64,000 nt of DNA. Source: Hydrogenophaga sp. GTDB taxonomy: Bacteria > Pseudomonadota > Gammaproteobacteria > Burkholderiales > Burkholderiaceae_C. Under the pieces are notes generated by a model. The model had not been told where the DNA came from, did no database searches, and worked only from the letters and a program-made list of their open reading frames with translations. Each line of letters opens with the position of its first letter. The stretch's first letter is position 1. The stretch spans positions 1 to 64,000 of the forward strand of contig JAEUOT010000034.1 in assembly GCA_016790705.1 (NCBI GenBank), read 5' to 3'. Below are positions 2,230-60,841 of the stretch, in pieces. Both the position numbers and the translations under genes were made by a program.

Positions 2230-5200
2230 TTAGAGTTTAGGATAAACGGTAGTTTTGGGCTTTAAAAATCCTTCAACTTTCACCCCGCTTGGGGTCGTGC
2301 CTGTCCATTTGTTACCGATGACCGTTCGATTCTGGAACGCGGCGTCTACTTCCACTTTAATTCTGTCGGCTGTCCACGAATCGGGGAATAGAGTGGATAT
2401 GCCGCCATTATTTGTTTTTTGCAAGAATTGTCCAGGATTGTTCGGGTCTGCAACTTCAATTCGTGCGCTATAAACACCCTGTGCATTTGGTGCACTTGCG
2501 GTTCCAGGGATAACTTTAATGGTTCCGTTGGCCGTCGAGTGACCGCCAACGACAGTGCCGTTGGGCTTTACTTCAGCACTAAGAATATGCCCATCAAAAT
2601 CAATTGGGGCCGTAACTTTGCTAACAGAAAGCCTAGCTTGTGCATTGAGAACGTCTCCCCCATTTGCCCCGCTAGCAACCGCACTCGAAGGTGGCAACTC
2701 CACCTTACCAGAGCCCATCGACAAGTCCGGCAGTCGTCCTAGGCGCGCGGCCTCTTCGGCCTTGTCGGCCAGAGTGACCACCTTTTTGATCGTGCCAGCA
2801 CCGCCGGTAATCGGCAAGTTGGTGATCGCAGCGCCCAGCGTAGTGGCGACGGCTTTGCCATTGCCAGTTTCGTAGGCTTGTGCCAGCTGTTCGCGCTCTA
2901 CAGACGACATCACACCGAGCAGCTGCGGCCAGTTGTCCGGATTGCTCACAAAGTTCCAGGCAGCCCCCAAGCCCTCCTTGGCCTGAGCGCCAGCTTGTGC
3001 ATCGCCTGTGACCGCCTTGAAGCCGGTATAGGCTGCTCCGGCGAGGCTTACGAGACCGTCTACGGTGTTATCGACCACGCCCTTGGCCACATTCCATGCG
3101 GTGTAGTCCCCCATGGTGTTTTGCGCCAGCTTGAGCGTCTCGCTTTGCTCACTGGCGTATTCAAGCGACGAAGTGAGGTTGTTTGAAGCCGCTCGGATGT
3201 AGCCAGCCGCAGCCACTCGCACATCCGACACAGCCTTTGTGCACTGCGGAGAGGTCTGTCCTTCGCAAGCGGCTAGTTGTTGGTTGCGTTGATCATCCAG
3301 TGTTTCTAGCCGCTTGATCTCTGATTCACAACTGGTGTCGCATCTGCCCGTCGTGCGATCTCTCTGGAGTTGTGCCAGGAGAGTGGCTTCTGTGTGGTTG
3401 AGATAGTTGTTCACTGCCGCATTGCTGGCGGTGCCCATGGCGATCTGCGCCGAGCTGGCATCGCCGCCGATCAGCAGTGCCGCACCCGCTCCCGAGAGCT
3501 TGGCCAGCTCGGTGACCGTGTTGCGGATCTGGTCGACCTGGGCTTTGAGCTGCGCGTTGTTCGGGTCGCTCTTGAGCTGCTCTTCCAAGCCGCCCAGGTT
3601 CTGACCGTTGCCGTACAGGCTGGCTACGATCTCCCCAATCGCTCCGCCCGCAGCCCCAGGAGCACAACCACTGGAGTTGCCCGCATTGGCCGCGCCCACC
3701 GCACAACCCAAGAGCGCGTGCGCGATGGCCTTGCTGGCGGCGTTGAGATCACCCGTTTTGCCGGCTTCCCCAATGGTGAAGGCGCCCTTTGCAGCGACGG
3801 TGTTGATCAACGCGCTCTGGAGGTTGTTCTTGATCGCGTCTTCCAGGTTGGTGCCCATCACGGCACTCTCCAGCACCGCGCTGGTCAGGCCTTGGAGCGC
3901 CTGCTTGGCAAACAGCAACTCGATGCTGGACTGGGCGTTGACGTTGGCCAGCGTGGTGCCGCCGTCGACCTTGATGTTGCCCAGAATGCCTTGCGTCAAC
4001 CCGGCCGTGGCCATGGTCAGGAGCAGCCCTTTGAGGTTCTCCTTGTTGCCCAGCTCTTTCAGGGTCGCGCCGATGTCGCCCTTGTTGTTGATCAGGCTGA
4101 CCGCGGCGGTGGAGGCCAACGCTGTGGTGCCTGCAGTCACCGCAGCACCCGCAGCGGCGCCGTAGCTGCTGGCAATTGCTGCGCCCCATTCGCTCGCCGT
4201 GCCGTAGCTCGCGATGGTCACGATGATGGCCACGGCGATGGCTGCCTCTTGGGTCAGACCCGACTTGCTGAAGTCCAGGCTCTTGTTCAAGACCTCCACG
4301 CGCTGCCAGTCGATGTCGCTGCGGCTGCCCAGCTCCTTGAGGTACTCCTTGCCCGGCTCCTTGGAGAGTTGCTCGATGGCCGAGCGCACGTTCGAGCCGG
4401 CTGGCAATTGCACCGAGACGCCACCCGCGCCCTGGTAGGCGCTCATGCCCGCGGGAATGGTCCCGTGGATCTCGGGCATGTGCAGCGTCTGCTGGATGTA
4501 GCCCGTGCTGTCGGTGCTTTGCCAACGGATGGTGCTGGTGGAGACGCTGTGCTCGACATGGCGGGTGTCGACGGCGGCGGCCTGCGTGACCCGCGGGCCC
4601 ACGCGCTCAGGGCTGATCAGCCCGCTTTTGACGATGGAGCCTTCGATGAAGGTCTCGCCCGCGACGTTGTGTTTGACCTCGCCCGAACCGGCGTTGATGT
4701 TGGTGACGATGGCGGTGCGGGTGGAGTCGACGTCGTTGGTGCCCCGGTAGGTCTCGGTGCGCCCACCGGCCTGGCCGCCGGTGGCCAGCCAGTTCATGTT
4801 GTTGGTGAAGTCCAGCAGGTAGGTGCCCGGCCCGCTCATCTTGGTGGAGCTGGTGGAGACTCTTTCGTGCACGTCGTAGGCCGCGCGCTCGCTGTAGTTG
4901 CCGCCCGTGCTGTAGCTGTAGCCCTGGCTGTTGATCTGCGCGCCGACGATGTCGATGCTGCCGCCGGCTGAGAGGTTCAAGCCCCCGCCGCTGCTCCAGC
5001 TGTTGGCGCTGTTGGTCAGGTCCGCGTTGCTCTGGTGGATGTTCTGCTCGATCTTGATCAGGCTGCCGGCCGTCTTGTAGCGGTTGAAGAAGTCCAGGGT
5101 CTGCACGTGACCGTGCAGCGCGGTGGTCAGCTGCATGTCCTTGCCCGCGCTGAGATTGGTCGATCCGCCGACGTTGGCCGTCACGCCCTGGGCCACGAGG

Positions 5201-8200
5201 TTGCCGCCGGCGCTGCCCGAGAAGCTGCCGCCGACGTTGATGTTCACGCCGGTCTGGTTGTAGGTGGAGTTCTCGTAGGCCCAGGTGGGGCCCTTGTCGT
5301 TGTTGGGGTTTTTGTCCTTGTCTCGGGGGATCACTCGCACCTGCTTGCCGGTGTCGTAGGCCAGCAGCAGCAGGTCGCCGCCGGCCGAGAGGCTGGCATT
5401 GCCCCCAGCGCGGATGCCCCCGCCCATGAACACCATGTCGTTGCCGGCGTTCATGCTCAGGTTCTGGCGCGCAGCGATCTGGCCCAGGATGCTGGTGATG
5501 TTGCCCGCGGCGCGCAGGTCGACGTTGTTGCCCTGCAGTTGGCCCAGGATGTTGGTGATGCTGGCAGCGTTGATCGAGAGGTTCTCGCGCGCGGCCAGCG
5601 TGCCGGCGTTGAACAGGCCGTCGGTCAGGTCGATCTTGACGCCCTTGGCCGAGATCAGGCCTTGGGAGAGCGTGGGGGTGTCGGGGTCGACCAGCGCGTA
5701 CAGCTGGGGCACCAGCACGCGCTGCGTGCGGCCATCGGGCAGCGTGACGGTGCGCTCGACCAGCCAGACGATGTCGCTGGTGAGCAAGGCCATCTGCTCG
5801 CGCGTGAGCGCGATGCCGGGCTTGAGCTGGTAGGCCGAGGCGAAGGCCTGGCCCGCGTCGAGCAGGGCGCGGTACTGCGCCTCGTCGTCGGTGAAGCTGC
5901 CCAGGAAGCGGCGCCCGGTGAGCTGGGCGACCTGCTCGCGCACGAGCTTCTGTTCGTAGAAGCCGTCGCCCAGACGCTGGGTCTGGGTGGCCGGGTCGTA
6001 GCCCAGGGCGGTGAGCATGTACTCGGAGCCCAGCCAGGTGCGCCGCTGGGTGAACTCGGGGTCGGTCTCGACCAGGTAGCCCGCCGGTGCGCCAATGCGC
6101 AACTGGAACAGCGCGTTGCCCGGCAGGGCGATCGGCGGGGCGTTGACCGTGCCGGCGGTGGCGCCGCTGCCGGAGACGGCGGTGCTGCCCACGCCGGAGG
6201 GCAGGGTGCGCACCACCACGCCCGGGCCGCTGCGGCCGAGCACCGGGGCGGCGCTGGTACCGCTGGCGCTGGTGCCGGCGGTGGGCGCTGCGCTGCGGCT
6301 GGCGACGCTGACTGGCTGGGCGGCCTGCGGGCGGGTGGCACCGTGGTTGGGGTTGGTGTGGACGGCGAATTCGGACGGGATGTCTTCGTATTCGTTCTGG
6401 GTGTTGGCCGCCCGCACCAGCGGCGGGTCGTCGAAGTAACGGCGCTTGTAGTAGCCGCCGTTGTAGAAACCGCTCTCGACCCAGGAGCCGATCCAGGTGC
6501 CTTCGGCTTCGGTGATGGTCTTGGAGTGGTAGCCGTCGATGTTCTGCAGGCTGCTGCCCGAGAGCAGGAAGCTGCCGCCGATCAGCATGCTGCTCATGTC
6601 GTTGACCGTCGAGCCGGCGTTGACCGTCATGTTGCCGCCCACGCTCAGGCGCGCCGGGTTGTCGCCACTGACGCCGCTTTCGGTGGTGGTGCGGTCGTAC
6701 TCGACGGTGACCCAGGTCCGGGAGACAGTCCACGGGCTGCCGTCGTAGGGCATGAAGTCGGCGCGGTGCTGGTCATTGGCGTGCAGGTACCAGTTCATCT
6801 CGCCGTCTTTGTCGTTGAGCCACAGGTCGATGGGGAAGCCGTCATCGGCGGGGTGGTACTCCTTGACGTGTTCGGTGGTGGTCGAGTCGTAGCTGACGCT
6901 GTCGCCCAGGTTCTGCACGCTGCCGGCGTTGATGTCCAGGTTGCCGAACACGTCGACTTCGGCGCTCTTGTTGATGAAGGCGCCGGCGGTTCCGGTGGCC
7001 CTGGCGTTGGCGTCCAGCGCGCCGCCCACGCGGGTGTTGCCCAGGCTCAGCAGCAGCGCGCCGTCTTCGTTGCGGACCACCCCCACGCCCAGGTCGAGGT
7101 CGCCCCGGCTGGCGATCACCGGACTGGTGCCGCCGCCGCCACGGTTGCTGAGCTGGTCGGCGGCGATGGCGATGTGGTCGCCGTAGATGCGACCGCCGCA
7201 GGTGTTCTCGATGCTGCCGGCCTGCAGCAGCGTGAACCCGCCGTTGATCAGGCCCTGGTTGGCGATGGTGTTGGCGCTCAGGTCGATCAGGCCGGCGCGG
7301 ATTTCTCCACTGGCCTGGTTCTGGATGCCGGAGGCCGACAGGCGCAGGGCATCGGCGGCCTCGATGTGGCCGGCGTTGGTCACGCTGGCAGCACTGGCGT
7401 TGAGGCTGCCGGCGGCCTGCAGGTAGGCGCCCGCGCGGTTGTCCATGGCGCCGGAGAGGGCCACGCGCACATCGCCGCTGCCCGCCTCCAGGGCGGCGCC
7501 GACGAGCTTGCCGGCGTTGGCGATGACGCCGCCGTTGTCCAGGCTGCGCGCGTCGATCTCGGTCGCACCGTTGGCGGCGATGACGCCGCCCGCGCCGTTG
7601 GTGATGGCCAGAGTCTTGCCGGCAGGGTTGGACGTGGATTGCGGGTCTTTGATCGAAAGGCTGCCGGTGCTCGAGAGCAGCCCGGCGGTGTTGTCCAGGT
7701 TGCCGCTGGCGGTGATCGCGAGCTGGTCCTGGGCGAGCAGGGCGCCGCTGCGGTTGTCCAGGCTGCGCACGGCGAGCTGGGCACTGCGGGCCTGGATGCC
7801 TTGGTTGGCGCCGCTGGTCTGGCGGTTGTCCAGGTCGGCGCCGCGCAGGTCCAGGCTGGCGCTGGCGGCGATCAGGCCGCCCTGGCTGTTGTCGACGTTG
7901 CCGGCGTGGGCGTCGATCTGGGCGCTGGCGGCGCTCTTGATGTCGCTGCCCTGGTTGTTCAGGCCCTGGCTGCTCAGGGTCATGCCGGTGCCGGCGGCGA
8001 TGGTAGCGCGGCTGCCGTGGGCGTTGTGGTTGTCGATGGCGCCGCTGCTGGCGAGGTCGAGCGTGGCGGCGGCGAGGATCTGGCCGCTCTGGTTGTTGAC
8101 CGCGCCGCTGGCGGCGATGCGGGTGTTGCCACCGCCCTGCAGCACGCCGCGCTGGTTGTCCAGGGCGCCGCTGGCGACGTTCAGGTGGCGCGCGGCGAGC

Positions 8201-10956
8201 ACGGCGCCGTCGGCGTTGACCAGGGCACCGCCGTGGGTGTCGATGGTGATGTCCTGGCCGCTGACCAGGCCCCGGGTGCTGTCGAGCGAAGCGGCGCCGA
8301 TGGTGACCCCGGCGCGCGACTGCACGCTGCCCTCGCGCAGGCTGGCGCCGCCGCCGATGTCCAGCCGGACCCCGCCGTCGACGCCGACGAGGTTGGTCTT
8401 GTCCGCGCTCAGGGACGCGGCGCGCAGGTCGAGCGCGCCGTTGGCGACGATATTGGCGTTGCTGGCGTCGAGTGCGCCGCGTAGGTTCAGCCGCGCATCG
8501 GTCTGCGCGGTGATCAGGCCGCGCTGCGCCTGCAGCGCGCCAGCCTCCAGCGTCAGCGCCCCGGCGGTGCTCAGCAAGGCGTCGTCGGCGACGACGGTTG
8601 GCGCGCCGCTGCTCTGCAGCGACAGGGTGCCGGTGCCGGCGTGCGTGAGCGTGGTGTGGTTGAGCTGCAGTTCCCGGGCGGCCAGCGTCAGGTCCCTGGC
8701 GTTGCTGCCCACGGTGGCGTTGCTGAGGTCGATGCGGTCTGCGACCTGGACGCTGGCGTCGGTGGCCGCGGTGCCCGACTGCTGCAAGCTGCCGCCCTGG
8801 AGGTTCCATTCGCGGGCCGTGACGCCGATCTGGGTCGCCCCGAGGGTGGCGCTGTCGGTGCGCAACTGGCCGCTGGCCTCCAGTTGCAGTTGTTGCACGG
8901 CCTGCAGCGAACTGCCCTGCGCGAGCAGGTCGCCCGCCCCGGCCTGCAGCGTGATGCGCTGCGTCAGCAGGTCCTGTCCGCGCAGGTCGATGGCGCCGGC
9001 CTGCGCCTGGATGCTCTGGCCCGCCAGCGTCAGGCCCTTGAGGTCGACGCTGCCGGCGCTGCCGCCTTGCAGGATCAGGTTGCCACTGCCGGCCTGCAGT
9101 GTCAGCGGCACCGCGCCACTGGAGGACATGCCCGCCGAGAGCACAGAGCCGGTGCTGCTGTCGATGCGGCCGGTGGAGGCTGTGGTCTGGAGGCGGACGT
9201 CGCCGCCCGCGCCGATGCGGCCCTCGTTGAGGAGGGTCTCGCCGGTTTGCGCGCTGAGCTGGCCGGCGGCATAGATCTGCGCGCCGGCGCGGTTGTCGAT
9301 GCGCTGGCCGCTGGCCAGTTGCATGTCGCCGTCGCCGACGATCAGGCCGCGGTTGTCGATGCGTCCGGTGGCGTCGAGCGTGGTCTGCGCGCCGCTGAAG
9401 ATGTTGCCCCGGTTGTCGATCAGCGCGGCGCCCTGCACGCTCACCCCCTGGTCGCCCATGAGGTTGCCGGTGTTGGTCACGCCGGTGCCAGCCTGCACGC
9501 GCAGCGCCCCGTCGGCGACCACGTCGCCGCTGTTGCTGAGGTCGCCGCCGGTGACCAGGCCGATGTCGCGCTGGCTCTGGATGCTGCCGGTGTTGCCGAT
9601 GCCCAGGGGTGCCTTGAGCTGCACCGCGCCTTGCACCACGATCTTCCCGGCGTTGTCGAAGCGCCCCGCCGAGCTCAGGCTCAGTTGCTGGCCGGCGTTG
9701 AGGCTGCCGGCGTTGCTCAGTTGGTTGCCCTGCAGGCTCAGGTTGGCACCCGCGCTCATTTCGCCGGTGTTGGACAGCAGGCCTCCGGCGACGAGGGTGG
9801 CGTCGGTGGCGGAAACGATCTGGCCGCTGTTGGTGAGGTCGCCGCCGCTCTGGACGGCGAGCGAACCTGCGGTGCGGATGCCACCGCTGTTGTCGAAACG
9901 TCCGGCGCTGCTGAGTGTGGCGCCGCCTTGCGAGGCGAGGGTGCCGCTGTTGACCAGATCGCCGTTGGCCGAAAGGGTGAGGCCGCCGTCGCCGGCCTGG
10001 ATGCCGCCCGCGTTGCGCACGCCCACGCCGGCTTCGGTCGCCAGCAGCGTGATCTTGCCGGCGTACATGCCGCCCAGGGCGGACACGTCCAGCGCGAAGC
10101 TGGGGGCCGGGCCGCTGCCGGCGGTGGGCGTGGCGCCCTGGCCGCCCGCGTCGATCTGGTTGGCGCCGGTGACGACGTTCAGCTCATTCGCCACCAGCGG
10201 TCCGTTGACCGCGACCGCGCGGGCCAGGAGGCCGGTGTAGTCGGTCAGGCTGGCGTCGAAGCCGCGCTCGCCGATGGTGATGGTGCCGCCGCGCACGGTG
10301 TAGCCGTTGACACCGCCGTCGCCCACGTTGACTTCGCCGGTGGTGAGGGTGGCGCGGCTGGCGTTGATGAAGCCGCTGCCGTTGACGTTCAGCCCCGCCG
10401 GGTTGGCGACGATGATCTCCGAGCGCTGGCCGGCGATCTCGATGAAGCCGTTGATCTGGCTGGGGTTGCCGCTGTTGACCTCCATCAGGATCACGCGCGC
10501 TTCGCCGGTCGCCAGCCAGGGGTTGGCCTGCACCCAGCCGCCCAGTTGCGAGGGCGTGTTGGTGCGGCTGTTGTTGACCACCGCGCCCCGGTTGTCGATG
10601 TCCAGTTGGGAGAAGCGGTTGCGCGAGACGCCGGCCGCGCCCGGGGTCGTGATGTTGACCTGCGGCAGTCCGTTGCCGGTGGTCAGCACGGTGGGGCGCT
10701 GGTTGCCTGGCGCGGTGGCGTCGTTGCGGATCTGGGCATAGGCCGTCAAGGGCGCCAGCGTGGTCTGCGTGACCATCGCCGAGAGCGCGAGCGTGTGAAC
10801 GGCGCGGGCCCATCGGCCGCGTGATGTCGGGGTGCGCGTGGCGCCCTCGGCCGGGCGCTCGCTGGCGCCGTTGCCGTGGCCCTTGGCCGACTCCGCGACC
10901 GCCATCAGGCAGCCCCGGACCTTGCTGAATACGCGGCGTCCGCAGTGTTTGTTCAT
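2230..10956 (-). CDS. cdiA: filamentous haemagglutinin/CdiA-like exoprotein with EndoU nuclease tip
   Basis: A 2908-residue TpsA protein. The N-terminus MNKHCGRRVF...GCLMAVAE is an extended signal peptide region, followed by a cleavable signal ending near AYAQ. The TPS secretion domain covers about residues 75-330 (motifs ANPAGLNVNGSGFINASR). Degenerate beta-helix filament repeats rich in NxGxL-type motifs follow to about 1450, then an RTT-like middle region, then a DUF637-like pretoxin segment near residue 2290 (NNKGDIGATLKELG). AVNNYLNH near residue 2515 looks like a divergent VENN boundary. The last ~125 residues match bacterial EndoU RNases: FDGH, GGHS, QKT and ISTLFPDSW supply the expected two His, Lys and Thr. 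Base composition falls from about 2740 to the stop, marking an exchanged tip. Export would use the upstream TpsB and protection the downstream small gene. The architecture is clear, whereas the RNA target is unknown. Confidence 0.9.
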   Translation of the reverse strand: MNKHCGRRVFSKVRGCLMAVAESAKGHGNGASERPAEGATRTPTSRGRWARAVHTLALSAMVTQTTLAPLTAYAQIRNDATAPGNQRPTVLTTGNGLPQVNITTPGAAGVSRNRFSQLDIDNRGAVVNNSRTNTPSQLGGWVQANPWLATGEARVILMEVNSGNPSQINGFIEIAGQRSEIIVANPAGLNVNGSGFINASRATLTTGEVNVGDGGVNGYTVRGGTITIGERGFDASLTDYTGLLARAVAVNGPLVANELNVVTGANQIDAGGQGATPTAGSGPAPSFALDVSALGGMYAGKITLLATEAGVGVRNAGGIQAGDGGLTLSANGDLVNSGTLASQGGATLSSAGRFDNSGGIRTAGSLAVQSGGDLTNSGQIVSATDATLVAGGLLSNTGEMSAGANLSLQGNQLSNAGSLNAGQQLSLSSAGRFDNAGKIVVQGAVQLKAPLGIGNTGSIQSQRDIGLVTGGDLSNSGDVVADGALRVQAGTGVTNTGNLMGDQGVSVQGAALIDNRGNIFSGAQTTLDATGRIDNRGLIVGDGDMQLASGQRIDNRAGAQIYAAGQLSAQTGETLLNEGRIGAGGDVRLQTTASTGRIDSSTGSVLSAGMSSSGAVPLTLQAGSGNLILQGGSAGSVDLKGLTLAGQSIQAQAGAIDLRGQDLLTQRITLQAGAGDLLAQGSSLQAVQQLQLEASGQLRTDSATLGATQIGVTAREWNLQGGSLQQSGTAATDASVQVADRIDLSNATVGSNARDLTLAARELQLNHTTLTHAGTGTLSLQSSGAPTVVADDALLSTAGALTLEAGALQAQRGLITAQTDARLNLRGALDASNANIVANGALDLRAASLSADKTNLVGVDGGVRLDIGGGASLREGSVQSRAGVTIGAASLDSTRGLVSGQDITIDTHGGALVNADGAVLAARHLNVASGALDNQRGVLQGGGNTRIAASGAVNNQSGQILAAATLDLASSGAIDNHNAHGSRATIAAGTGMTLSSQGLNNQGSDIKSAASAQIDAHAGNVDNSQGGLIAASASLDLRGADLDNRQTSGANQGIQARSAQLAVRSLDNRSGALLAQDQLAITASGNLDNTAGLLSSTGSLSIKDPQSTSNPAGKTLAITNGAGGVIAANGATEIDARSLDNGGVIANAGKLVGAALEAGSGDVRVALSGAMDNRAGAYLQAAGSLNASAASVTNAGHIEAADALRLSASGIQNQASGEIRAGLIDLSANTIANQGLINGGFTLLQAGSIENTCGGRIYGDHIAIAADQLSNRGGGGTSPVIASRGDLDLGVGVVRNEDGALLLSLGNTRVGGALDANARATGTAGAFINKSAEVDVFGNLDINAGSVQNLGDSVSYDSTTTEHVKEYHPADDGFPIDLWLNDKDGEMNWYLHANDQHRADFMPYDGSPWTVSRTWVTVEYDRTTTESGVSGDNPARLSVGGNMTVNAGSTVNDMSSMLIGGSFLLSGSSLQNIDGYHSKTITEAEGTWIGSWVESGFYNGGYYKRRYFDDPPLVRAANTQNEYEDIPSEFAVHTNPNHGATRPQAAQPVSVASRSAAPTAGTSASGTSAAPVLGRSGPGVVVRTLPSGVGSTAVSGSGATAGTVNAPPIALPGNALFQLRIGAPAGYLVETDPEFTQRRTWLGSEYMLTALGYDPATQTQRLGDGFYEQKLVREQVAQLTGRRFLGSFTDDEAQYRALLDAGQAFASAYQLKPGIALTREQMALLTSDIVWLVERTVTLPDGRTQRVLVPQLYALVDPDTPTLSQGLISAKGVKIDLTDGLFNAGTLAARENLSINAASITNILGQLQGNNVDLRAAGNITSILGQIAARQNLSMNAGNDMVFMGGGIRAGGNASLSAGGDLLLLAYDTGKQVRVIPRDKDKNPNNDKGPTWAYENSTYNQTGVNINVGGSFSGSAGGNLVAQGVTANVGGSTNLSAGKDMQLTTALHGHVQTLDFFNRYKTAGSLIKIEQNIHQSNADLTNSANSWSSGGGLNLSAGGSIDIVGAQINSQGYSYSTGGNYSERAAYDVHERVSTSSTKMSGPGTYLLDFTNNMNWLATGGQAGGRTETYRGTNDVDSTRTAIVTNINAGSGEVKHNVAGETFIEGSIVKSGLISPERVGPRVTQAAAVDTRHVEHSVSTSTIRWQSTDSTGYIQQTLHMPEIHGTIPAGMSAYQGAGGVSVQLPAGSNVRSAIEQLSKEPGKEYLKELGSRSDIDWQRVEVLNKSLDFSKSGLTQEAAIAVAIIVTIASYGTASEWGAAIASSYGAAAGAAVTAGTTALASTAAVSLINNKGDIGATLKELGNKENLKGLLLTMATAGLTQGILGNIKVDGGTTLANVNAQSSIELLFAKQALQGLTSAVLESAVMGTNLEDAIKNNLQSALINTVAAKGAFTIGEAGKTGDLNAASKAIAHALLGCAVGAANAGNSSGCAPGAAGGAIGEIVASLYGNGQNLGGLEEQLKSDPNNAQLKAQVDQIRNTVTELAKLSGAGAALLIGGDASSAQIAMGTASNAAVNNYLNHTEATLLAQLQRDRTTGRCDTSCESEIKRLETLDDQRNQQLAACEGQTSPQCTKAVSDVRVAAAGYIRAASNNLTSSLEYASEQSETLKLAQNTMGDYTAWNVAKGVVDNTVDGLVSLAGAAYTGFKAVTGDAQAGAQAKEGLGAAWNFVSNPDNWPQLLGVMSSVEREQLAQAYETGNGKAVATTLGAAITNLPITGGAGTIKKVVTLADKAEEAARLGRLPDLSMGSGKVELPPSSAVASGANGGDVLNAQARLSVSKVTAPIDFDGHILSAEVKPNGTVVGGHSTANGTIKVIPGTASAPNAQGVYSARIEVADPNNPGQFLQKTNNGGISTLFPDSWTADRIKVEVDAAFQNRTVIGNKWTGTTPSGVKVEGFLKPKTTVYPKL
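3722..5481. repeat. copy of the sequence at 1-1628 (pretoxin duplication)
   Basis: Bases 1-1628 and 3722-5481 are highly similar over almost their whole length, with an internal ~240-base segment (about 4975-5215) present only in the full gene. Long runs are identical. One copy is the 3' part of the large exoprotein gene and the other is the orphan fragment. Direct-orientation repeats of this length are substrates for homologous recombination that would swap the toxin/immunity tip. Confidence 0.9.
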
Positions 10957-55097: not shown

Positions 55098-55982
55098 TCA
55101 GGCGGCCAGCGCCATCGGCGCCGTGTTGGCCACCGTGGGCAGCCCGGTCTCGATCGGCAGGCTCGGGTCACGCGACCACTCGTTCCACGAGCCGAAGTAC
55201 ATGCGCACGTCGGCAAAGCCGGCCTGCTTGAGCGCGAGGAAGGTGTTGGACGCGCGCGCGCCCTTGAAGCAGTAGAGGTAGACCGTGTCGGTCGGCGCGA
55301 TGCCGGCGGTGGCGCACTCGGCCTTCACCTCGTCGGGCGACTTGAACACCGGGCCCGTGGGCGAGGGCTTCATGAAGCGGTACCACTCGATCCACCTCGC
55401 GCCCGGCAGACGGCCCTTGCGGGGCGCGAAGTCCTTGCCATAGGGGCTGGAGCTTTCGCCGATCCACTCGTCCACATCGCGCACGTCCAGCAGCACGGTG
55501 CCCGTGCCCAGCGCGGCCTGCACATCGGCCTGGGTCAGCATCACGTCCGCCGTGGGCAGGCTGGGGAAAGTGGCCGGGGTGGGCGTGGCCGCTTCGGTGG
55601 ACACCGGCAGGCCGGCCGCCTTCCAGGCGCTGAAGCCGCCGTTGAGCACCTTCACCTTGGGGTAGCCCAGCCAGGTCAGCAGGTAGTAACCGCGGCACGA
55701 CTGGCCGTAGCCGCTGTTCATCGCGTCTTCGTAGAAGACGGCGGTTTCCTTGCCGGACAGACCGGCGTCGCCCAGCGCCTTGGCAAAGGTGGCCTTGAGT
55801 TCCTGCAGCCCCTCGGGCGAGGACGTGGCCAGAAACGTGAAGATCTCGCGCAGGTTCACCGCGCCGGGAATGTGCCCGGCCGCGAAGGTGTCCGGGTCGC
55901 GCGTGTCGATGATCACCACCGGTTCGGCGGCTTTCAGGGCCGCCAGCTGGGGCGGAGCAATCAGGGTGGCTTCAATGCTCAT
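55098..55982 (-). CDS. sulfurtransferase (tandem rhodanese domains)
   Basis: 294 residues with two rhodanese domains. The N-terminal domain (VVIIDTRDPDTFAAGHIPGAVNL) is inactive. The C-terminal domain carries the catalytic Cys in TVYLYCFKGARAS. Length suits thiosulfate/3-mercaptopyruvate sulfurtransferases. First gene of a four-gene minus-strand operon (with OsmC, flavoprotein and rubredoxin oxidoreductase) behind a sigma-54 promoter. Confidence 0.92.
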   Translation of the reverse strand: MSIEATLIAPPQLAALKAAEPVVIIDTRDPDTFAAGHIPGAVNLREIFTFLATSSPEGLQELKATFAKALGDAGLSGKETAVFYEDAMNSGYGQSCRGYYLLTWLGYPKVKVLNGGFSAWKAAGLPVSTEAATPTPATFPSLPTADVMLTQADVQAALGTGTVLLDVRDVDEWIGESSSPYGKDFAPRKGRLPGARWIEWYRFMKPSPTGPVFKSPDEVKAECATAGIAPTDTVYLYCFKGARASNTFLALKQAGFADVRMYFGSWNEWSRDPSLPIETGLPTVANTAPMALAA

Positions 55983-56129: not shown

Positions 56130-56188
56130 TTGACCGCGGCGCACGACATTTGGTTTACACAATGTCGACACATTGGGGCCGTGGTCAA
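56130..56188. promoter_or_regulatory. candidate upstream activator sites for the sigma-54 promoter
   Basis: CAATGT-CGAC-ACATTG (56160-56175) is a perfect dyad about 115 bp upstream of the -24 element. TTGACCGCGG (56130-56139) and CCGTGGTCAA (56179-56188) form an outer inverted repeat with 9 of 10 matches. Location and symmetry suit enhancer-binding protein sites. The remaining DNA from here to 56493 shows no gene and lower GC than the surroundings. Confidence 0.55.
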
Positions 56189-56493
56189 CTGACGCTGGAG
56201 CGTTGGTTGCGGGCGAATGGCGAAATAGCGGAGCTAGGCTTTGATCTGTTGCAGACGCCGCTGTCCTTCAACTGGGGGACAGCTGTATGGTTCAGAATGT
56301 GACTGTCCCTATCGACGCAATGTGTGCGGAGGGTCTGCCCTTTGGGCCATCAAGGCGCAGGGCTCTTCTGAATAATCTCGTTTCTAGTCAAGCCCATTAG
56401 TTCGCGGGCGTCCAGATCACCCGCGTAGATAACATTGGCAGACGCTGGCTGAGACACATCTTAAAAGCGAACAGCGAGCATCAAGGAGACATT

Positions 56494-58722
56494 GTGTTGC
56501 ATATCAAAAATGAGCTGCTCAATTACGTGGCTGCCAACGTCCCTGGTGCGAAGTTTGAAAATTTCGCTAAGCGCCTTTTTGAGATCGAATATGGCCATCA
56601 CTTCACACCCCTCGGCGGGGTGCATGACGGCGGAGCCGATGGAGTTCTCTTGAGCGGCGTTCAGGAGTGCGTTGAGGAACCGAATACATTTGCCCAGTTA
56701 AGTGCGACGAAAGAAGAGACTGCACAGACCAAGGTCGACCAAACAGTTGCTGCACTTCTGAAATCGGGCAGAACGCCAATCCAAGTCATCTATGCGACTT
56801 CTGAGCGAATCCCTAAGCAGGATCGAATAGTTGCGCACATCTTCAAGAAGTACAAAGTGCTTGCTGCGGTTCGGGATTTAGAGTGGATCGAATCGCTAAT
56901 TAACAAGAACAACGCCGCCAACGAAGCCTTTCATCGTACGTTTTCCGCTGAAGTCAGTCATCTCGTCCGGGCGGCGGCTCCTTTGCAGGGTAAAGTCAAC
57001 GAGTTCGTTTCTGATCCAACTGTCTTTGCCTACCTTAGCCACCAACTTTCTGATCGCTTTGCGCAAGATAAAATCCATAAACCTCTTGTTGACGCGCTTA
57101 TTTATTGGTCGCTCCGCGAAACTGACCCGGACCTGACTCCGCCGCAACTAATGAGGCGAGCCGAGTTGGTTGTAAAGTTGGCAAGTGTTTTTCCGAACGC
57201 GAAGAGCATTCTTTTGCCCCATCTGGATGAGCGCCTAGTAGAGCTCGCAAGAAAGCGCCCAGGCGAAATAGAGCGACTGCGTTACTACCGGAAAGAGGAT
57301 GCCTTTTGTCTGCCGTTTGAAATGCGCGAGCAACTCGCGACGGAAGCACTGGTCGAGGTGCAGGCTCAAGAAGCCTTCAGAGCATCGGTACTTTCTAGAT
57401 TCGCAGATCTTGCGCCGAACGCGTCAAGCACGGAGGCAGCACTGTGTCGCGAGCTTGTGTTCGACGCAGTTCATTTGTATTTTGTTGAGCAAGGGTTGGT
57501 CCTAGCCGCGTTTCTCGAGAAGAAGCTCGAATGCTTGGACGTAACGGATCAAGTCCTTGAGGATGAACTTCGAAAGGCGCTTAGTGGTCGCTCTGGGATC
57601 AAGCCAGGGGACATTACACCAGCGGGTTTCGGGGCTGGTCTTCGAGCGCTTCGGGGAATCTTCTATGAACCCACTGAGGAGGAGCGACGGTATCTCGACT
57701 ACTTGTCTCGTACCTCGATGCTTTTCAATACGTTGCAGGCATCGCCCAAGGTAATTGAGTTTTTCAACAATATGGCGGGCCAGTATCGTCTGTTGGTCGG
57801 TACGGATCTTATTGTTAAAGCGCTAGCAGAGTCTTACTTGCCCGAGCAACAACGGCAAGTCACGAACCTGCTCAAAATTGCCGTGGAACTGGGGTCCACA
57901 TTAATATTGGGTGAGCCGGTTTTAAATGAGGTGCTGACGCACCTTCATGCTGTAGATCTTGAATACAGAAATCATTACGCTGCTCGAGAGCCATATTTAA
58001 GCAGCGCTTCCGTTGCGCATTGCAATCGAATCCTTATTCGGACTTATTTTCACGCGCGCCGGACACCAGGCGGACCCAAAAGTTGGGGGCATCTAGTGAA
58101 TTCTATTCTCGATCCAGAGGCTCTTCGAGCGAAGTCCACGAAAGCCTTTCAAGATCTGAGATCGTTCCTGATGCTGCGCTTTCGCATGAAGTGGGAATCT
58201 GAGGAAGACCTACGGAGTGGCGTTGATACAAGGTCAGTCGATGCGCTAGCTCAGCGCCTTATCGAAGCTAGACCGGAAAAGCATGCAGAACTCTCGTACA
58301 ACGATGCATTGATGACACATGCAGTCTATGCAGGGAGATCAAGCAGAGGGGAGGCCGCACTCCACGATGGGTTCGGCTATAAAACATGGTGGCTGACTAA
58401 GGAAGTGACTGTTCTTAGGATGACCGGGAGCATGGTCATGGATCACGGGGGAGTGCCGTACATCATGCGGCCGGAGTTTTTGCTTAACTTTGTTGTGCTT
58501 GCGCCGAAGGCGTCCGCTGTCCGGGACCAGTTTCGCGATTTGCTGCCAACTACAGTCGGGCTTCAACTCGGTACTCATTTGTCTACCGCTGCAATGGATT
58601 CGCTTCTTGCCGGCGCAGAAGAATGGGCCTCATATCCCCCGGAACGGATTACAACCATGATGGCGGACAAGGCCAATCTTTTAATGCACGACAAGTTCAA
58701 GCAGTACATATGCAACCTTTAG
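56494..58722 (+). CDS. large putative nuclease: Mrr-like N-terminal domain plus possible PIN-like C-terminal domain
   Basis: 742 residues from GTG at 56494, with AAGGAG 5 bases upstream. Codon use is markedly AT-richer than its neighbours, indicating transfer. Residues ~20-110 (FENFAKRLFEIEYG, GGVHDGGADGVLL, FAQLSATKEETAQTKVDQTVAAL, IQVIYATSE) resemble Mrr/PD-(D/E)XK restriction domains, with QLS in place of the usual acidic-x-Lys pair, so it may be inactive or divergent. A long helical middle follows. From about residue 430, LVGTDLIVKAL (Asp ~437), EPVLNEVLTHL (Glu ~478) and LSYNDALMTHAV (Asp ~604) follow the acidic pattern of PIN-like nucleases. Single-gene insert, probable phage defence. 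Function inferred. Confidence 0.7.
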   Translation: MLHIKNELLNYVAANVPGAKFENFAKRLFEIEYGHHFTPLGGVHDGGADGVLLSGVQECVEEPNTFAQLSATKEETAQTKVDQTVAALLKSGRTPIQVIYATSERIPKQDRIVAHIFKKYKVLAAVRDLEWIESLINKNNAANEAFHRTFSAEVSHLVRAAAPLQGKVNEFVSDPTVFAYLSHQLSDRFAQDKIHKPLVDALIYWSLRETDPDLTPPQLMRRAELVVKLASVFPNAKSILLPHLDERLVELARKRPGEIERLRYYRKEDAFCLPFEMREQLATEALVEVQAQEAFRASVLSRFADLAPNASSTEAALCRELVFDAVHLYFVEQGLVLAAFLEKKLECLDVTDQVLEDELRKALSGRSGIKPGDITPAGFGAGLRALRGIFYEPTEEERRYLDYLSRTSMLFNTLQASPKVIEFFNNMAGQYRLLVGTDLIVKALAESYLPEQQRQVTNLLKIAVELGSTLILGEPVLNEVLTHLHAVDLEYRNHYAAREPYLSSASVAHCNRILIRTYFHARRTPGGPKSWGHLVNSILDPEALRAKSTKAFQDLRSFLMLRFRMKWESEEDLRSGVDTRSVDALAQRLIEARPEKHAELSYNDALMTHAVYAGRSSRGEAALHDGFGYKTWWLTKEVTVLRMTGSMVMDHGGVPYIMRPEFLLNFVVLAPKASAVRDQFRDLLPTTVGLQLGTHLSTAAMDSLLAGAEEWASYPPERITTMMADKANLLMHDKFKQYICNL

Positions 58723-58945
58723 AGCTTCTTTCGATGACATGTCGAAATGCGCATCTCTTAGGCTGCTAAGCCGGTCGTTCGGCCTAAGTTATGAACGAGC
58801 ACCGGGAACACCAGCGGTGAGCTTCTATTTGTTCCTGATTGTGAGTTCTGCGGGGTTGCGCTAAGTGTCAGCAGATGGCCGATGAGCGATCTGCTCGCCT
58901 AAGCCTCTTTCGTGCTCAAGTGCGTGCCACAGTTCAGCGAGCCGC

Positions 58946-59164
58946 TTATCTGCAAACCAGCCCACCCGCATCCAGCGCCGGCGGCCGCATCAAGTCGTTG
59001 TCGATGCCCATGACCTCACTGGCCCGTTCGACGGCCCGCCACAGCAGTGGCGGCATTTTCAGGATCTCGTCGGGCGTGTCGGCCTGAGCGATCCAGTGGC
59101 TGATCTGCCGGTGCTCGTCCGGGGTCAGCAGGGCCAGGTGCAGCATTTCGTCGATGGTTTTCAT
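58946..59164 (-). CDS. small hypothetical protein
   Basis: 72 residues, high GC like the host genes, helical (TIDEMLHLALLTPDEHRQISHWIAQADTP read in parts). No family recognised. It lies just downstream of the NifA-like gene on the same strand (18-base gap) and probably shares its transcript. The 223 bp between it and the defence candidate hold no gene that I can support. Confidence 0.6.
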   Translation of the reverse strand: MKTIDEMLHLALLTPDEHRQISHWIAQADTPDEILKMPPLLWRAVERASEVMGIDNDLMRPPALDAGGLVCR

Positions 59165-59182: not shown

Positions 59183-60787
59183 CTACCGCAACCCCGCCTT
59201 CCTCAGACGGTAACTGAATTGCCGCAGCGTCAGGCCCAGGCTCTGCGCCGCGCGCGACTGGTTGCCGCCGTGCCGGGTCAGCGCGGCCTGCAGGGTGGGC
59301 GCGTCGTGCGATTCGGCGCTCTGGTAGGCGCGCACCAGCGGGGCAGCGATGTCTGCCGGCGGTGAGCTGCGCGGGGCCGGGCTGGGCGGGGTGGCGAGTG
59401 CTTCGGGAACGAAGCGCGGCAGGTCGGCCGCGTGCACCACAGGCTGGTCCGCCAGCAGCACTAGGCGTTCGACAACGTTGCCCAGCTCGCGGATGTTGCC
59501 GGGCCAGTCCAGCCGCTCCAGCCGCGCCAGCGCGTCGGGCGCCAGGTGCACGTTGCGCTGGTGGGCCTGGTTGGCGCGGCTGGCAAAGTGCAGCGCCAGG
59601 GCGTGGATGTCTTCGCGCCGCTCGCGCAGGCTGGGCAGGCGGATGGGGATGACGTTGAGCCGGTAGTACAGGTCCTGGCGGAAGCGGCCGGCGGCGGCTT
59701 CCTGCGCCAGGTCACGGTTGGTGGCGGCGACCAGCCGCACGTCGATGCGGATTTCGCGCTGCCCGCCCAGGCGGACCAGGGTGCCTTCCTGCAGGGTGCG
59801 CAGCAGCTTGGCCTGCAGCGCCAGGGGCAGTTCGCCGATTTCGTCGAGAAAAATGGTGCCGCCGTGCGCCTGCTCGAACCAGCCGGGCCGCGCGCTGTGG
59901 GCGCCGGTGAAGGCGCCGCGTTCGTGGCCGAAGAGTTCGCTCTCAAACAACGTGTCGGGGATGGCGGAGCAGTTGACCTTGATGAAGGGCTGGTCGCGCC
60001 GGCCGCTGGCCAGGTGCACGGCGCGCGCGAACAGTTCCTTGCCGGTGCCCGATTCGCCGAGCAGCAACACGGTGGCCTGCGATTGCGAGACGCGTTCGAG
60101 CTCGCTCAGCGCCTGCAGCAGCGCGGGCGAGCGGCCAATCAGCCCGTAGCGCGCGCTGGCCGATTCGAGCGCGCGTTCCAGCGCCTCGTTGCGCGAGGTG
60201 AGCTGGCGCCGCTCTTCAGCCACCAGTTGTTCGAGTTGCAGCAACTGCCCGGCCAGCGTGGCCAGGATGCGCAGCACGGCCATGTCGTCGCTGAGGTGGC
60301 GCTGGCGGCTGCGGATGCGGTGGCAGCCGAGCACGCCGATGGTCACGCCGTTGAGTTCGATCGGCAGGGCCAGGTAGGCCACGGTCTGGGGCGGCAGTTC
60401 GTCGCGGGTGACGGTGCGAAACTGGAACAGCGGTTCGGCGTCCACGTCCTGCACGATGGCGGGCAGGCCGCTGGCGAGCACACGGCCGGTGATGCCCTCG
60501 CCCCAGCGGAAAACGCCGCGCGCGGCCTCCGCTGCGGTCAGGCCGTAGGCGTGGCGGACGGAGGCGGTGCGTTCGGCGCCGTCGGACAGCTCATCGGCCA
60601 GCACCATGCGCCCACGGTTGAGCCCGAGCAGCTCGCTCATCAGGTGCAGCATCTCGCGCAGCACGAAGGCCGGCGCCAGGCTGCGGCCGACCAGCTTCAT
60701 GACTTCGCGCATGAGCAGCAGCTCCTGCGCGTGCCAGTCGGTGGGCGTGGCGTCGGGGGCGTTGGGGTCGGTGCGGTGAGGGGGCAT
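59183..60787 (-). CDS. sigma-54-dependent enhancer-binding protein (NifA-like: GAF-AAA+-Fis HTH)
   Basis: 534 residues from the ATG at 60787. A GAF domain lies at about 35-190 ([23 protein letters not shown]). A central AAA+ domain carries [15 protein letters not shown], the sigma-54 contact loop [15 protein letters not shown] and [20 protein letters not shown]. The C-terminal Fis-type HTH is [30 protein letters not shown]. The closest known architecture is NifA, but no nif genes are present. The nearest sigma-54 promoter is that of the sulfurtransferase operon, 3 kb downstream, the likely target. Confidence 0.93.
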
Positions 60788-60841
60788 GGGGCGGGGCGGT
60801 GGGGTTCCCCGGACAAGCAAACATCACACCAGACGCCCGCC

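Follow-up and report, generated by a model that had tools for sequence, protein, structure and literature searches.

PIN domains are required for phage defence by the DefensePredictor systems DS-3 and DS-5 in E. coli, and 13 of 31 further systems carry PD-(D/E)XK domains, as far as the available part of that study reports (PMC13092281). DS-3 is described there as lacking an antitoxin and as having one PIN domain split between both termini. Avs4 (AVAST type 4) is, with its N-terminal nuclease, another of the closest known systems; its chain of 1534 residues binds the phage portal according to the title of PDB entry 8dgf. In this study, a single gene of Hydrogenophaga sp. (assembly GCA_016790705.1) was analyzed, which lies within the first 64,000 nucleotides of contig JAEUOT010000034.1 (this whole stretch is called the window). 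It encodes a protein of 742 amino acids (aa) with a predicted Mrr-like PD-(D/E)XK restriction endonuclease (REase) domain at the N-terminus and a predicted PIN domain in the C-terminal region (Table 1). With a probable winged helix behind its REase domain, the protein resembles the PD-(D/E)XK-wH enzymes, type IV enzymes that depend on N6-methyladenine (6mA) and mostly stand alone, according to the accessible part of their description (PMC11037411). Among curated defence models, the family is matched best by that for the REase-TIR proteins of short argonaute systems (PADLOC model Aga_REase-TIR).

The protein and its relatives probably represent bacterial defence nucleases of a family not described so far, and the interpretation we lean towards is a horizontally mobile, single-gene nuclease directed against invaders (phages or plasmids). 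Predicted folds of both end domains, their conservation, a horizontal spread and defence genes beside part of the family were observed.

For the analysis of conserved residues, 15 intact full-length homologues with 27-51% identity to the window protein were aligned with it (alignment A4, 16 rows, here clade A). Because of these 15 homologues, a chance open reading frame (ORF) can be excluded. Together with the likely ribosome binding site, they confirm the ORF on which the original prediction was based.

In the predicted structure, the N-terminal domain shows the restriction endonuclease core fold, with MspJI and AspBHI among its best fold matches. The restriction-endonuclease-like N-terminus that had been proposed is supported by this predicted fold. 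Five residues of the domain are invariant in clade A; of these, D49, Q68 and K80 are also invariant in an alignment of eight clade-A proteins and two proteins of a distant clade (clade B). The PADLOC argonaute-associated REase-TIR model matched 6 of the 16 members (best E 9.4e-7), presumably in the N-terminal region, and two PDC-S02 models of PADLOC matched one member each (E 0.008-0.016). The Pfam family Mrr_cat was found as a weak match in one of the 16 members (E 0.068) and in the N-terminal piece of clade B (E 0.061).

A PIN fold was predicted for the C-terminal region, the closest structures being VapC toxins. PIN_12 of Pfam matched one of the 16 members weakly (E 0.1) and C-terminal pieces of clade B with E-values of 0.22 and 0.67. 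A profile-profile comparison with hhalign found all three regions of the protein to be homologous between clades A and B (N-terminal E 9.8e-13, middle E 2.1e-13, C-terminal E 7.8e-22). With hhalign, the C-terminal region gave no match to two single PIN proteins. Since this second comparison found nothing, the PIN call rests on the fold and on the motif spacing.

In a canonical PIN site, the first Asp directly follows strand 1. In clade A this position is a Gly (Gly436) and an Asp (D438) follows two residues later in all 16 rows; clade B keeps the canonical first Asp (W-L-D-T-T). The acidic pattern noticed earlier falls within the predicted PIN fold; the residue given as D437 is D438 and lies outside the canonical position. 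Within clade A, D438 and E479 do not vary; D604 is found in 14 and E637 in 13 of the 16 rows. Position 637 is an Asp in L028 and a Gln in L024 and L025. These two sister sequences lack both D604 and E637 and keep the whole restriction motif. At the level of sequence, this reads as a DNase domain that is constrained in all lineages and as a PIN catalysis whose constraint differs in clade A. The original prediction did not contain this pattern, and on this reading a sensor role of the PIN domain would be worth testing.

Table 1. Features of the 742-aa protein gene, its surroundings in the window and genes beside its homologues (positions refer to the window unless a locus is named).
Feature	Position	Strand	Remarks
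REase-winged helix-turn-helix-PIN protein gene	56494..58722	+	742 aa, GTG start; uninterrupted ORF, full-length homologues
Likely ribosome binding site AAGGAG	56483..56488	+	5 nt before GTG; read from sequence
PD-(D/E)XK (Mrr-like) restriction-nuclease domain, residues 1-155	56494..56958	+	E22, D45, D49, Q68, K80 invariant (16/16)
Probable winged-helix domain, residues about 175-286	57016..57351	+	
Helical region without assigned fold, residues about 287-430	57352..57783	+	secondary structure of prediction
PIN domain (VapC-like), residues 431-661	57784..58476	+	D438, E479, D604, E637
Helical C-terminal tail, residues 662-742	58477..58719	+	low confidence
Low-G+C insert with one gene	56175..58952	.	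absent at the site in same-genus genomes; boundaries approximate
Host flank, rhodanese-like sulfurtransferase	55098..55982	-	85-89% identity matches in 9 same-genus genomes besides one fragment
72-aa host gene right of the insert	58946-59164	-	recurs in six same-genus loci
Host flank, NtrC/NorR-type regulator	59183..60820	-	75-85% identity matches in 12 same-genus genomes
Neighbours at L019			Eco57I methylase and XhoI nuclease
Neighbours at L020			Eco57I methylase and BsuBI/PstI nuclease
Neighbours at L023			HsdR-like protein and N6 methylase
Neighbours at L026			C5 methylase and DndB-like protein
Neighbours at L027			GmrSD and Fic
Neighbours at L033			type I methylase and HsdR, with AAA_15 and GajB-like genes
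Neighbours at L029			AAA_15 ATPase and PADLOC candidate-system protein (PDC-S11)
TrlF family AAA-like ATPase	L057:12572-15193, L058, L060		beside E. coli and Klebsiella relatives; best PADLOC match Ppl, E 6.2e-35

The G+C content of the insert is 0.521 (0.51 for the gene), compared to 0.675 in the 10 kb to its left, 0.689 in the 5 kb to its right and 0.670 in the window. The window was compared with 12 same-genus loci using blastn. The homology on the left side reached furthest, to 56173-56175, in L048 and L054, and on the right side it restarted at 58952-58968 in the six loci with the small adjoining host gene, which is inverted in L048 and unmatched in others. The flanking genes, which we take to encode a rhodanese-like sulfurtransferase and an NtrC/NorR-type regulator, are 182-219 bp apart in G1133, G1135, G1136 and G1137 versus 3.2 kb in the window; in G1126 and G1127, the gap measures 579 bp and about 1.3 kb, respectively. 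Because the DNA homology breaks at ~56,175 and restarts at ~58,952, and because the flanking genes adjoin elsewhere, the sequence comparison identifies a stretch of ~2.8 kb carrying one gene as an insertion. A gene standing alone in AT-richer DNA between host genes had been proposed, and this holds, with the low G+C content of the insert and the short distance between the flanks in five same-genus genomes.

No integrase gene and no outstanding repeats were found at the insert ends, the repeats within the insert resembling chance, and no tRNA gene was found within the 64-kb window. At the gene itself, neither an Rfam match (up to E 1) nor a sigma-70-like site was detected, and no earlier in-frame start codon lies upstream of the GTG at 56494.

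The site between 55982 and 59183 is variable across the genus: several genomes have only the short gaps given above, and G107 and G1134 carry other inserts of about 4.1 and 8.3 kb, respectively (L045, L046). The genes in the G1134 insert resemble, by eye, a transporter (TRAP-transporter-like) and metabolic genes. The site was not called a defence hotspot, as no defence gene was recognized by eye in the inserts of G107 and G1134. A second low-G+C ORF (0.43; 1834-2220) occurs elsewhere in the window and adjoins the minus-strand ORF of a predicted protein of 2908 aa (2230-10956).

Searched alone, the 742-aa protein had no match in Pfam, NCBIfam, PADLOC and the PDB sequences, and single-sequence searches found none in phages, plasmids, genome contigs or viral contigs and one weak match in PHROGs (E 0.01). 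There was also no match in viral contigs using a two-row alignment or in phages using two other family members, and a profile search of the PDB sequences returned only a designed binder (E 0.0046). The single-sequence search of whole genomes of the class identified 2 of 369, including the own genome, with a relative at 33% identity. The two-row profile detected 3 of 398 genomes of the phylum (the own genome, G401 with a distant copy, and G684 in the N-terminal region only) and 5 of 399 of the order (the own genome, two strong full-length matches, one fragment at a contig end and one distant interrupted copy). Full-length clade-A relatives are thus rare, with 2 of 369 in the class, 1 of 398 in the phylum and 3 of 399 in the order, the own genome included.

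A scan of genome contigs yielded at least 17 loci, three of them on contigs already found. Fifteen are intact, L033 is frameshifted and the frame of L034 is broken near a contig end. The latter two are absent from alignment A4 and the residue counts but contribute to the neighbourhood counts. The interrupted copy of G1046 and the fragment at a contig end in G782 enter neither the alignment and residue counts nor the neighbourhood counts. The protein P0004 was set aside, since it matches in the N-terminal region only; this protein of 1073 aa (L010:6290-9508, minus strand) is encoded beside a pair of genes that appear AbiEi/AbiEii-like by eye.

The clade-A hosts belong to five phyla (Pseudomonadota, Actinomycetota, Acidobacteriota, Nitrospirota and Thermodesulfobacteriota). 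In the tree, the four rows of Actinomycetota cluster together, and L024/L025 (100/100) and L029/L031 (100/99) are cross-phylum sisters. This pattern is consistent with horizontal transfer, although the case for any single transfer is weaker because several of the hosts are metagenome bins. Besides plasmid genes, clade B contains P0003 of G401 and the interrupted G1046 copy. P0003 matches 13 plasmid records; in 8 of these, from Escherichia, Citrobacter and Klebsiella, the match spans 80% or more of its length. Three haloarchaeal plasmid records match P0003 in the N-terminal region only, and one of these is annotated as a restriction endonuclease. The E. coli relative was found in 5 of 5426 complete genomes, in each case on a plasmid, and is annotated only as a hypothetical protein. 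The five phyla, the cross-phylum sisters, the empty sites and the plasmids support mobility of the gene, as judged by sequence comparison.

The neighbourhoods of the 17 loci and the window (18 in total) were analyzed; at two of these loci, both flanks together span less than 5 kb, and others are truncated at contig ends. For this, 20 neighbour proteins chosen by eye were compared with Pfam, so that further defence genes are possible elsewhere. Restriction or DNA-modification genes, and with them an association with defence genes, were found in the flanks of 6 of the 18 loci. Integrase-like genes were noticed by eye near L020, L032 and L033. When 130 proteins encoded around the homologues in ten genomes were searched with PADLOC, type I and type II restriction models were among the top 25 of 212 matching models. 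In clade B, a gene for a TrlF family AAA-like ATPase is located beside the relative on three plasmids. On one of these, the relative is truncated beside a Tn3 transposase, and the far side of the transposon carries genes for a site-specific methyltransferase and a DEAD/DEAH helicase. On a fourth plasmid, a partial match adjoins a DUF262 gene and an EcoRI-family methyltransferase. One clade-A member adjoins an unusual HsdR-like protein (L023:5763-9875, minus strand) with matches to the phosphorylase superfamily and weak TRADD-like matches in its N-terminal part.

Several results weigh against an anti-invader nuclease. Both end regions are predicted to fold as nuclease domains according to VIA-align, as the original prediction would have it, whereas Foldseek alone gave no match with E <0.001, so that VIA-align carries the fold calls. 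One PIN-like and two restriction endonuclease entries of the viral model library were matched with a probability of 1.00, which speaks for the folds, though none had an E-value below 0.001. The predicted template modelling score (pTM) of the structure was 0.46; the arrangement of the domains is thus not fixed by the model. Unrelated Pfam families matched equally well or better (NTP_transf_4 0.02, YggL 0.026, Imm61 0.057), Mrr_cat had no match in the own genome, this gene included, and the E. coli relative P0005 matched neither expected Pfam family. The catalytic Lys of the REase motif can migrate in PD-(D/E)XK enzymes. Its usual position, which we take to be Q-x-K, is a Ser or Thr here, and K80 in the next helix of the model may replace it. 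With this changed position and the non-canonical PIN site, the sequences indicate that either domain may be inactive. Host-like neighbours were seen by eye in the window, L025, L028, L031 and others. Finally, the PADLOC control was not clean: for 130 of 132 proteins from elsewhere in the same ten genomes, 32 models matched, with DpdF and Cas6 at the top; the best 25 of the 32 include no restriction-modification model. Both protein sets came from a rough gene caller, and 212 and 32 are counts of models, not of proteins. The single-gene defence system of the original prediction is supported in part.

For such an anti-invader nuclease, we infer catalysis, target, trigger and protection as follows. 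The N-terminal PD-(D/E)XK domain would be the conserved executioner that cuts DNA. The winged helix and the helical middle region would recognize invader nucleic acid or hold the protein inactive until infection. The PIN domain would act as a second arm, probably as an RNase in clade B with its textbook active site, and in the window clade with its remodelled site as an altered RNase or as a nucleic-acid sensor controlling the DNase. Going further, the proteins could be new one-protein immune enzymes with DNase-type and RNase-type domains under a winged-helix sensor, in one lineage of which the PIN domain has become a pseudo-nuclease sensor that licenses the DNase; this extension is speculative.

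The leading alternative is a type IV enzyme that depends on DNA modification, in which the winged helix reads methylated DNA, the PD-(D/E)XK domain cuts and the PIN domain is only a structural or binding module. The fold similarity to MspJI and AspBHI, which both depend on modification, speaks for it, as do the described PD-(D/E)XK-wH fusions that read 6mA, in the accessible part of (PMC11037411). A DNA methylase gene lies at most three genes away in 3 of the 18 loci (L019, L023, L026; gene order by eye), which is close to the 13% implied for the wH fusions in that part of the paper; the methylase adjacency therefore does not decide between the two (PMC11037411). We regard the type IV enzyme as unlikely. 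The nearness of the PIN fold to VapC and the plasmid-borne relatives near toxin-antitoxin and transposase genes would suit an addiction or plasmid-competition toxin on mobile elements, whose PIN domain would behave like VapC and whose primary role would not be directed against phages. Against this toxin, the insert contains no ORF of the usual antitoxin size beside the gene (the longest has 50 aa, or 70 aa antisense into the right-hand host gene), and the PIN site of clade A changed while the DNase motif was kept, which makes the toxin improbable. PIN domains also work in RNA processing, as stated in the available part of (PMC3710099), and the window and several other loci have host-like neighbours, as expected for a host enzyme with a housekeeping role in RNA or DNA processing. 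The rarity in class, phylum and order, the empty sites in the genus and the cross-phylum sisters argue so clearly against a housekeeping enzyme that its probability appears very small.

If the anti-invader reading is true, one gene could attack both DNA and RNA, or one nuclease domain could gate the other. The canonical, remodelled and partly lost PIN sites form a natural series to tell dual attack from gating, and the relative with a canonical PIN site on E. coli plasmids allows a test in a laboratory host. Single-gene systems are furthermore easy to test and to transfer.

Compared to the known systems, the 742-aa protein differs in its domain composition. MspJI and AspBHI differ from it, as it has no identified modified-base reader domain and carries a PIN domain instead. 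Avs4 is a large STAND ATPase, whereas no AAA/STAND or other NTPase family match and no P-loop ([AG]x4GK[ST]) was found in the 16 members. Unlike VapC of VapBC, the PIN domain is fused here to a DNase-type domain, its first catalytic Asp is displaced and the insert holds no antitoxin-sized neighbour. In contrast to the REase-TIR proteins, the family had no match to a TIR or argonaute-type domain. Compared to the PD-(D/E)XK-wH 6mA enzymes, as covered in the accessible part of their description, about 455 residues including the PIN domain are added (PMC11037411). DS-3 is set apart by description only, the available part of the study mentioning no restriction-nuclease domain for it (PMC13092281). 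No curated family among the libraries scanned covers the full 742-aa protein. No REase-PIN fusion of this architecture was among the papers listed by searches of an open-access library, in agreement with the earlier statement that no described system combining Mrr-like and PIN-like domains was known to its author. PIN domains in defence were already known; the fusion of REase and PIN domains in one protein appears to be new.
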